From Deltaproteobacteria bacterium (lineage in GTDB: Bacteria > Desulfobacterota > Binatia > UBA9968), in contig VGTH01000029.1 of NCBI GenBank assembly GCA_016874755.1, positions 1-64,000 of the forward strand: a stretch of 64,000 bases of DNA, written 5' to 3'. The position numbers and the translations under genes were made by a program. Each line of letters opens with the position of its first letter. Positions within the stretch are counted from its first letter, which is position 1. The notes beneath the pieces are model-generated. The model saw only the letters and a list, made by a program, of their open reading frames with translations, ran no database searches and was not told where the DNA came from. Positions 23,801 to 25,289 of this stretch are shown one piece after another.

Positions 23801-23853
23801 CCGTTGTTAGCTTTGCTGTCCGCGGTACAGCCCCGTTCTTGGACCAATCGAAC

Positions 23854-24558
23854 ATGAGCGTTGATCGGAATCGGGTTGCGCAACTGGTAGAGTCTCTCAA
23901 TTCTTCGGACAAACCCAAAATTCGCGCCGCCGTCGATGCGTTAACCCCTCTAGCCTTACAATCCGAAGCGCTACGATCTCAACTCGAGGGGTTACTGAAC
24001 CAAGCCCAGTCTAACCGCTGGCCGATCGCCTACATTCTTGGTCAATTGCCCGAGCCGTCCGGTGCGGTGATTCGATCGCTACTCGCCGGGCTCGACCATC
24101 GTGAACCTGACATCCGCTGGGCGATCGCGCTGCTACTGAACCGCATTGCCAAGAGCCATGGCGAACTTGTGACTTGGTTCATGGACCTGCTCACCAGCGG
24201 GACGGTCAATCAAAAACGCATGGCGATTTATTGCTTGCGCGATTTGGAATTGGAGGACGCTGAGAGTCTGCTGGCCATGGTGCGAGCTGTGTGCGACGTC
24301 GACGCAACGGTGCGGGTGGCGGCTATTACAAGCTTAAAAAGACGCCGCGATGCCGGAGCCAGCGAACGCGATGATCTGCTACAAAGGTTTCTGCACGACG
24401 ATGACTTGCGGGTGCGCAACGCTGCGGCGATTACCTTGGCCAACTTGGGCTCGCCTTCCGTTGAGTTGATGCAAGCGCTGCAGGCCGCGGCGGCGGGAGA
24501 AAATGCGCAATTAAAAAAATCCGCTGAAGTCGCGCTTGCGATTCTGTACAAACAGTAG
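23854..24558 (+). CDS. HEAT-repeat protein
   Basis: A 234-aa all-helical protein. From about residue 60 it has recurring 30-35 residue helix pairs (EPDIRWAIALLLNRIAK; DATVRVAAITSLKRRRD; DLRVRNAAAITLANLG; ENAQLKKSAEVALAIL), matching HEAT or PBS-lyase-type repeats that serve as protein-binding scaffolds. No catalytic residues or signal peptide. The ATG at 23854 is chosen over 23839, though neither has a clear ribosome site. Single gene; partner unknown. Confidence 0.8.
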   Translation: MSVDRNRVAQLVESLNSSDKPKIRAAVDALTPLALQSEALRSQLEGLLNQAQSNRWPIAYILGQLPEPSGAVIRSLLAGLDHREPDIRWAIALLLNRIAKSHGELVTWFMDLLTSGTVNQKRMAIYCLRDLELEDAESLLAMVRAVCDVDATVRVAAITSLKRRRDAGASERDDLLQRFLHDDDLRVRNAAAITLANLGSPSVELMQALQAAAAGENAQLKKSAEVALAILYKQ

Positions 24559-24607: not shown

Positions 24608-24650
24608 GTTTAAAATGATAGGGGCCGCCAAGCTTGCGCCGGGCGGCCCC
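24608..24650 (-). terminator. Terminator of the 13-codon transcription unit
   Basis: On the minus strand: GGGGCCGCC, 12-nt loop, GGCGGCCCC, then TATCATTTTAAAC. A perfect 9-bp, very GC-rich stem (24621-24629 with 24642-24650) with a short U-rich tail. It has no other minus-strand gene to serve except the tiny ORF at 24718-24759. Confidence 0.8.
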
Positions 24651-24674
24651 GTAGGTGGACTGAGGGGAATTCCC

Positions 24675-24719
24675 AGGCTCTAGGCCCGAATTCCCTTCAC
24701 AGAAATCCGCCTAGAGCCT
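24675..24719 (-). repeat. 11-bp perfect inverted repeat after the tiny ORF
   Basis: AGGCTCTAGGC and GCCTAGAGCCT pair perfectly across a 23-nt loop. The stem starts inside the TAG stop codon of the 13-codon ORF. It is a second strong RNA hairpin in the same short transcript. Confidence 0.8.
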
Positions 24720-24759
24720 AAGTCTCAGCCACCTCACAGTCAGTACATTTATCAATCAT
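24718..24759 (-). CDS. Candidate 13-residue peptide, unknown function
   Basis: ATG at 24759, reading MIDKCTDCEVAET and stopping at TAG. The peptide has a C-x2-C pair and acidic character. AAAGGAGGTGG, a full match to the anti-Shine-Dalgarno sequence, lies about 10 nt before the ATG; a TTGACA-17-TACACT promoter lies just upstream; a hairpin starts at the stop codon and a GC-rich terminator follows. The whole unit is about 180 nt and has no gene downstream on its strand, so it is not a simple attenuator leader. It may be a small metal- or thiol-binding peptide, a precursor for modification, or part of a dual-function RNA. I do not recognise a family. Confidence 0.55.
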   Translation of the reverse strand: MIDKCTDCEVAET

Positions 24760-24766
24760 GTCTGGA

Positions 24767-24777
24767 CCACCTCCTTT
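24767..24777 (-). promoter_or_regulatory. Perfect Shine-Dalgarno site of the tiny ORF
   Basis: AAAGGAGGTGG on the minus strand, longer and better than the ribosome site of almost any large gene in the window. It is the main reason to take the 13-codon ORF seriously. Confidence 0.8.
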
Positions 24778-24792
24778 CCCTGTTCACCACGA

Positions 24793-24821
24793 AGTGTAAG
24801 GAAGCAGTCACGATCTGTCAA
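24793..24821 (-). promoter_or_regulatory. Sigma70-type promoter of the tiny ORF
   Basis: Minus strand: TTGACA (24821-24816), exactly 17 bases, then TACACT (24798-24793). The -35 is a full consensus match and the -10 matches 4 of 6. Start of transcription would be near 24786, giving a leader of about 27 nt that contains the ribosome site. Confidence 0.75.
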
Positions 24822-24858
24822 CAAGAAAGTTGGGCTGGGCTCAGATTTGTCGGTCGGC

Positions 24859-25121
24859 CTAGCCCGGATTATTCATCGCTGCGGCGCGATCGAAGTGAAA
24901 CTCTTCCGGAGCGAAGGCAACAGATATCCGCTTCGACGCCGCCTTGTAGGGGCGACCGGCGGTCGCCCTGCTCTGCGAATCGCAGTGGAAAGGTCGAAGA
25001 GATGCCCAGCATCGGCGAATTAAACCGAACGATTTGCGCTGATGCCTGCGCTCCTCCAGAGTTCCACTTCGATCGACACAGTGTCATCGGTTTTCCCGGT
25101 CGCATGAATAATTCGGGCTAG
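24859..25121. mobile_element. MITE-like element with CTAG-flanked inverted ends
   Basis: CTAGCCCGGATTATTCAT (24859-24876) and the reverse complement of 25104-25121 (CTAGCCCGAATTATTCAT) match in 17 of 18 bases. A second, inner inverted pair (24888-24918 with 25043-25074) matches in about 26 of 31. The 263-bp element has no transposase gene and could have been moved in trans; CTAG at both ends suits a 4-bp target duplication or part of the ends. It contains a GTAGGGGCG hairpin at 24946. Confidence 0.65.
24946..24968. repeat. GTAGGGGCG...CGCCC palindromic repeat, copy 3
   Basis: GTAGGGGCGACC-GGC-GGTCGCCC, a perfect 8-bp stem, located inside the MITE-like element. Confidence 0.65.
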
Positions 25122-25289
25122 CGGGCTTTGTCGATCTCTTGCATTAGCGATGCGTCGACGAATTGGCTGGGGTTGGCGCCAATGCCTTCCTTGCCAAGGG
25201 TCTTCAGCAAGTGACGCACGCCTTCGAGGTCGACGTGAATTGATTTCTGGAGATGCTTTTGCCCGTAGACAAGTGCGGCGCATCGTTTC
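25118..25289 (-). pseudogene. C-terminal remnant of an NMT1/THI5-like binding protein
   Basis: The frame ending in TAG at 25118-25120 reads ALVYGQKHLQKSIHVDLEG, then VRHLLKTLGKEGIGANPSQF and VDASLMQEIDKAR. This is the end of an SsuA/NMT1-type solute-binding protein; the FVDASLxxEID pattern matches the FVDTSFLEEFDKAG tail of the intact gene at 51274. There is no start codon, signal peptide or remaining domain, and the stop codon falls on the CTAG end of the MITE-like element. The rest of the gene must have been lost when the PqqC-like gene came to lie here. Confidence 0.6.

Follow-up and report, generated by a model that had tools for sequence, protein, structure and literature searches.

The window analyzed here is a stretch of 64,000 nucleotides (contig VGTH01000029.1, assembly GCA_016874755.1) from a bacterium of the class Binatia, and our subject is a small element on its minus strand, at positions 24821 to 24611, which specifies an RNA of roughly 170 bases. 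Sequence inspection identified a promoter, a Shine-Dalgarno sequence (SD1), an open reading frame (ORF) of 13 codons, two hairpins, and a terminator, all within this short interval (Table 1). A preliminary description of the locus had listed the same parts, from the TTGACA-17-TACACT promoter and the AAAGGAGGTGGTCC leader to the ORF with its TAG codon, an 11-bp hairpin, and a 9-bp terminator stem, and all of them were found where it had placed them. Its claim of a full anti-Shine-Dalgarno match holds for a complementarity of 14 nt, one pair of which is G-U. Comparison with relatives indicates that the reading frame and the RNA structure are both selected. Three features that emerged are absent from the preliminary description: the pairing of the C-terminal half of the ORF with positions 24664-24654, a third helix that crosses the stop-codon hairpin, and kinship with the cataloged small RNA (sRNA) Ms_IGR-5.

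A short reading frame selected to stay open

An in-frame start was found at SD distance in 120 of 121 distinct elements, compared with 41 and 4 when the frame was shifted, and the distance between the SD and the Cys-Glu-Val (CEV) codons covers all residues modulo 3. Within the alignment of the window's family, the frame survives a 3-nt insertion and shifts of the start (ATG or GTG three bases earlier), with synonymous changes at TGT/TGC, ACT/ACC, and GAT/GAC. The same pattern extends to the wider set of distinct elements, where Thr in the codon before Cys is written ACA in 46, ACT in 17, ACG in 6, and ACC in 2, and Arg before that codon is written AGG in 19 and CGG in 17, with further synonymous pairs at TGT/TGC and AGC/TCC. 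The ORF varies in length (about 9 to 16 codons), while its C-terminal signature, C-E-V-x-x-x-stop, is shared across the family. As to the GAGGTG that encodes Glu-Val and forms a second SD-like site (SD2), its count of 121/121 is by construction, and in a scan that permitted GAR-GTN, the genuine elements use GAG GTG only. Taken together, these comparisons show a short ORF that is selected to remain open and in frame, and on this comparative evidence the element encodes a peptide. They also agree with two expectations of the preliminary description, as ORF, promoter, and stems are kept together in relatives while the flanks diverge, and the codons are not broken while the hairpins persist, the substitutions being synonymous and the indels frame preserving. 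At one locus from Zixibacteria (L114), the start is apparently ATT.

The conserved product could be the peptide itself, about 9 to 16 residues long with a C-E-V-x-x-x C terminus, which would be secreted, bind membranes or proteins, or serve as a modification substrate, leaving the RNA structure to control only translation and decay. The clear selection at the coding level (a frame kept through indels, synonymous changes) speaks for such a micro-peptide gene, as does the near absence of Gly codons where TGG, AGG, or CGG precedes Thr. We nevertheless consider it unlikely. Glu and Val are single-codon in genuine elements, so that the RNA, too, accounts for the best-conserved residues, and neither sequence nor length is conserved in the N-terminal half. 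In addition, no modifying enzyme or other neighbor is conserved across clades, and Cys is replaced by Ser in 8 genomes of the class. The last point also bears on the metal- or thiol-binding C-x2-C peptide of the preliminary description: the C-x2-C motif is limited to the window's order, to which the first Cys is largely restricted, and the second Cys is Ser in the 8 Binatia genomes, which makes metal or thiol binding unlikely as the conserved function. The Ser codon AGT at this otherwise invariant position was seen in loci L162 to L168 and L187, which come from seven Binatia genomes belonging to a single genus and from one further genome.

SD1 has a predicted duplex of about -24.2 kcal/mol with the 16S tail, compared with -11.3 kcal/mol for SD2; both values refer to a generic tail. 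A search of the assembly for the 16S 3' end of the host matched the element itself and nothing else. The GAAAGGAGGTGGTC core of SD1 is unchanged in 16 of 16 aligned family members, an invariance supported by the BLAST-based family alignment only; the wide scans required an exact SD and GAGGTG (or GARGT). We considered that the RNA might be a decoy that binds ribosomes and occupies 30S subunits through its anti-16S match of ~14 nt. The complementarity of about -24 kcal/mol (again with the generic tail) and the family invariance would fit such a role, which needs neither an ORF nor a stop codon nor the covariation described below, and we regard it as very improbable. Promoter boxes of the TTGACA/TAAACT type also keep a constant position in the family alignment, with diverged flanks, and comparable boxes were found 5' of several elements from other clades.

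Table 1. Features of the element in the window, with the evidence for each
Feature	Position	Strand	Evidence
Promoter, TTGACA (24821-24816) / 17-nt spacer / TACACT (24798-24793)	24793-24821	-	Sequence; boxes kept in family alignment
SD1, AAAGGAGGTGGTCC, extended Shine-Dalgarno, complementary to 16S 3' end over 14 nt (one G-U)	24764-24777	-	Single occurrence in window
ORF, MIDKCTDCEVAET-TAG, 13 codons (ATG + 12)	24718-24759 (ATG 24759, TAG to 24718)	-	Start-frame counts, synonymous variation, frame-keeping indels
SD2, GAGGTG within ORF, exactly 9 nt 5' of stop	24730-24735	-	Codon usage of elements; 16S duplex energy
P1 5' strand, GGTGGCTGAG, within codons E-V-A-E	24724-24733	-	Predicted fold; cross-clade covariation
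P1 3' strand, CTCAG(T)CCACC, directly 5' of terminator	24654-24664	-	Predicted fold; cross-clade covariation
P2 5' strand, TTAGGCTCTAGGC, includes stop codon	24709-24721	-	Predicted fold; covariation
P2 3' strand, GCCTAGAGCCTGG	24673-24685	-	Predicted fold; covariation
PB 5' strand, GGGAATTC, in P2 loop, partner 24672-24665, crosses P2	24688-24695	-	Covariation
PB 3' strand, GAATTCCC (conserved AAT-C-rich segment adjoining P1)	24665-24672	-	Covariation
Intrinsic terminator, GGGGCCGCC / GGCGGCCCC, 9-bp stem 24650-24642 / 24629-24621, tail TATCATTTTA	24611-24650	-	Sequence; relatives

Covarying helices in the codons and the stop

The RNA is predicted to fold at -90.2 kcal/mol (z = -6.4), with none of 200 shuffles equal or better. 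Three helices, named P1, P2, and PB, carry the comparative signal. In P1, the last codons of the ORF pair with the segment directly 5' of the terminator, and the geometry of the partner (AAT-N11-NCC) is present in 68 of the 120 elements among the matches listed, compared with 4.5% of shuffles. In 44 distinct constructs, we counted 39 cells changed on both sides of P1, compared with 11.4 in shuffled sets (0 of 500 reached this value), and a slid register destroys the signal; these rows are phylogenetically related and the shuffles ignore kinship, for which the slid-register control corrects in part. An example from close relatives is GGTGGTGGCC with GGCACCACC in locus L162, which becomes GGTGGCGGCC with GGCGCCACC in locus L168. 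The energy of a duplex over the whole ORF did not discriminate true from swapped partners because GGTG/CACC is common to all elements, and the fixed-register test was used in its place.

P2 corresponds to the 11-bp perfect hairpin, which begins inside the stop codon. It has four pairs with double changes within the family, and a helix score of at least 6 was obtained at its position in 64% of elements compared with 20% of shuffles. PB (GGGGATTC/GAATCCCC) also covaries in the family, with four pairs with double changes (0 of 500 shuffles). From these covariation tests, the last ORF codons are shown to form a covarying helix, P1, and the stop codon to lie inside a second one, P2, with the third, PB, crossing P2 in the window's family. 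As hardly any linker is left where PB crosses P2, the full P2 and PB should, judging from this geometry, be mutually exclusive or form a tight pseudoknot. In the terminator, the stem letters change among relatives while stem and T-run are kept; the window itself has a weak T-tract (TATCATTTTA), and most relatives have a clean T-run.

Two side observations concern distant elements. Three loci from Zixibacteria (L095, L114, and L156) have a clear TGTTGGG/CCCAACA helix adjoining P1, recognized by eye, and some have TATAAT-like promoter boxes. Four actinobacterial loci (L127, L146, L133, and L119) keep the ORF with no recognizable P1 partner and may be decayed or divergent copies.

Kinship with Ms_IGR-5, distribution, and gene neighborhood

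An Rfam search at a permissive threshold matched the window to Ms_IGR-5 (RF02471) at 41.6 bits (E = 2e-8) over the entire model (1-184 of 184), below the gathering cutoff of 45 bits, so the element is not a member under the Rfam rule. Rfam lists Ms_IGR-5 as an actinobacterial sRNA gene of unknown function. Its consensus holds TTG ATT GAT TTA TGG ACA TGT GAG GTG GCT GCC CGC TAG, which reads (L)IDLWTCEVAAR-stop, and the SD, the ORF ending in CEVxxx-stop, a P1-like region, and the terminator align with the window over the full length. Both are standalone units whose neighbors are not conserved. The window differs in belonging to Binatia and not to Actinobacteria (its class relatives are Candidatus Binatia records), and its clade is set apart by the C-x2-C motif, by the length of P2, and by the clarity of the crossing helix. 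By this comparison, the element is a divergent relative of Ms_IGR-5, a homolog outside the family as now drawn. Pattern-found loci gave a similar picture, as three actinobacterial ones scored 73 to 176 bits and four of five tested from other groups scored 33 to 38 bits over the full model length; the fifth, from Manganitrophaceae, had no RF02471 match at the same threshold.

With BLASTN, 17 of the 25 genomes from the window's family were found to have the element, including 11 of 11 near-complete ones. It normally occurs once per genome and is single copy in the window's own. Two copies near contig ends in genome G024 (L024 and L027) are probably an assembly duplication. Of 148 Binatia genomes, 67 have the ORF-plus-SD pattern and 0 have the reversed control pattern, which places the former far above chance; it was found in none of about 380 other genomes of the same phylum. 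When 84,980 genomes were scanned with a degenerate pattern (SD, 18 to 36 nt, TGY GAR GT, stop unconstrained), at least 120 loci matched. Even with the stop left free, it falls exactly three codons past CEV in 101 of the 120 among the matches listed, and at least 15 of the remaining 19 are chance matches within longer ORFs. By record title, the hosts among the matches listed are many Actinomycetota, Binatia and "Deltaproteobacteria" metagenome-assembled genomes (MAGs), Rokubacteria, three Zixibacteria, and one record each from Myxococcales (Myxococcota), Manganitrophaceae (Nitrospirota), and Acidobacteria; MAG titles may be wrong, and the phyla with one record are tentative. Phage and plasmid records gave no significant match, and the 10 pattern matches in viral contigs appeared by eye to be noise, none having an SD-spaced in-frame start, the C-E-V-x-x-x-stop ending, and the structure.

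The general type, a conserved sRNA that contains a small ORF, is already known, and the RNA itself is cataloged in one phylum. Its expression is documented in Streptomyces and Mycobacterium smegmatis (PMC8079986, PMC8780764, PMC10454040), and ribosome-protected reads on MS_IGR-5 have been reported in M. abscessus and M. smegmatis (PMC4974804). Ms_IGR-5 goes unmentioned in the main text of a survey of coding sRNAs from 2017 (PMC5521070), and a search with one actinobacterial variant found no paper naming the peptide. The papers searched describe neither the ORF with its constant C-E-V-x-x-x-stop end, nor the way in which codons and stop overlap covarying helices, nor the crossing helix, nor the spread outside Actinobacteria. 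The catalog entry would suit a plain base-pairing sRNA whose mini-ORF is an element of translation-linked stability or activity, with peptide and ribosome switch being incidental, and so would the C-rich strand adjoining the terminator and the combination of terminator and strong promoter. Such an RNA leaves unexplained why the stop lies exactly three codons past GAGGTG and why the frame is constantly maintained, and we judge it distinctly unlikely.

The downstream gene is convergent, coding for a HEAT protein in the window, a THAP4-like heme-binding protein in mycobacteria, and PdxH in several other actinobacteria, and no conserved codirectional downstream gene was found in the window or its relatives, the neighbors varying by clade. 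On the upstream side, mycobacteria have a class-IV aminotransferase, and most of the Binatia relatives whose flank is long enough have a Cu-oxidase_4 protein. The anatomy (an SD, a short ORF overlapping alternative hairpins, and a terminator) is that of a leader-peptide attenuator or a riboregulator of a downstream gene, a role that the convergent gene in the window and relatives and the change of neighbors between clades largely refute; we give it very little credence. This gene order bears out the preliminary description, which had proposed a translated micro-ORF in a self-contained transcription unit with no gene to attenuate. It had also raised a link with the TenA/PqqC-like gene 0.5 kb upstream, which lies beside the element in no other family locus examined (most flanks being at most 1.5 kb per side). 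The two are separated, as it had noted, by a miniature inverted-repeat transposable element (MITE) at 24855-25125, of about 263 bp with terminal arms ATGAATAATYCGGGCTAG, which has about 40 copies in the genome, mostly 85 to 99% identical. Several contigs end within MITE copies, so the MITE fragments the assembly. Overall, the observation made in the preliminary description is confirmed and its interpretation only partly supported, since the focus on C-x2-C was too narrow and synteny contradicts the PqqC link.

The convergent HEAT-repeat gene (23839-24558) is fast evolving, with 40 to 58% identity to relatives in which the adjacent M24 peptidase has 77 to 88%. In one Binatia record (L098), the Cu-oxidase_4 and HEAT neighbors are apparently on swapped sides, as if the element had been inverted or moved.

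A possible ribosome-operated RNA and its known counterparts

We interpret the element, with moderate confidence, as a divergent relative of RNAs of about 150 to 200 nt that are independently transcribed and form a widespread family, each at once a mini-mRNA and a structured RNA, operated by the ribosome between two states and with an output in trans. The best reading is a translated dual-function RNA that is probably remodeled by the ribosome. The near-complete anti-16S SD would load a ribosome that proceeds to the stop codon, where the in-ORF GAGGTG, at a normal SD spacing from the P-site codon, may slow or hold it at termination. We favor such a pause because 8 nt separate the end of the GAGG from the last sense codon, and this distance is the same throughout the family. 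By its passage, the ribosome would open both P1 and P2, release the C-rich strand (...CCCCNCAG-CCACC, anti-SD-like), and allow PB to form, and the two-state RNA could in this way report or limit its own translation. The output in trans would then more likely be the pairing of the freed strand with ribosome-binding sites of mRNAs than the 13-residue peptide, as the RNA, too, imposes the residues under the strongest constraint and Cys has changed to Ser in members of the class. A stronger version, in which SD2 holds a ribosome at the stop, the ribosome converts P1/P2 to PB, and the completion of translation thereby activates or deactivates a trans-acting RNA, would be an unrecognized switch that crosses phyla and has no downstream gene; we put it forward tentatively, as a possibility.

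Several points weigh against this interpretation of a ribosome-operated RNA. PB is weak in Actinobacteria, so that the switch may be confined to certain clades, the conservation of SD2 could reflect only that GGTG is part of P1, and the output in trans is purely our inference. For the Binatia element, the case is one of sequence comparison, and the authors of PMC4974804 see footprints on sRNAs of this sort as unclear evidence of translation.

An RNA annotated as an actinobacterial sRNA encodes, on comparative evidence, a conserved ORF, and reaches Binatia, Zixibacteria, and other phyla. To our knowledge, this ORF is among the shortest conserved ORFs. As a covarying RNA structure incorporates its codons, its stop codon, and the in-ORF SD, it poses a question testable in M. 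smegmatis or Streptomyces, namely, whether termination on a tiny ORF can switch a trans-acting RNA. It is also a caution that an RNA cataloged as an sRNA may be a mini-mRNA.

Similarity to other cataloged sRNAs is limited. The CC2171 sRNA of Caulobacter (RF01867) has a similar GAAAGGAGGUGAUCC 5' region (30.8 bits, with a cutoff of 75) and BjrC68 (RF02353) a similar GC-rich terminator (22.6 bits, with a cutoff of 39), these matches coming mainly from the terminator or the SD-like stretch; as far as it is visible, the consensus of CC2171 has no CEV ending. In its working, the element resembles rnTrpL/peTrpL of Sinorhizobium, an attenuator RNA with a leader peptide acting in trans (PMC7298713): both would have a tiny leader-type ORF overlapping mutually exclusive hairpins, a short terminated RNA, and possible trans activity of RNA and peptide. 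Unlike in rnTrpL, the ORF of the window's clade has no Trp codons, there is no trp operon, and the downstream neighbor is the convergent HEAT gene. RNAs of the SgrS/SgrT and SR1/SR1P type are likewise of regulatory size with a selected small ORF, a feature that the window element also has; their peptides are several times longer, and their ORF and pairing region are largely separate. Both are named as dual-function sRNAs in PMC11133741. In the window element, unlike in SgrS and SR1, codons of the ORF itself make up one arm of the conserved helix.
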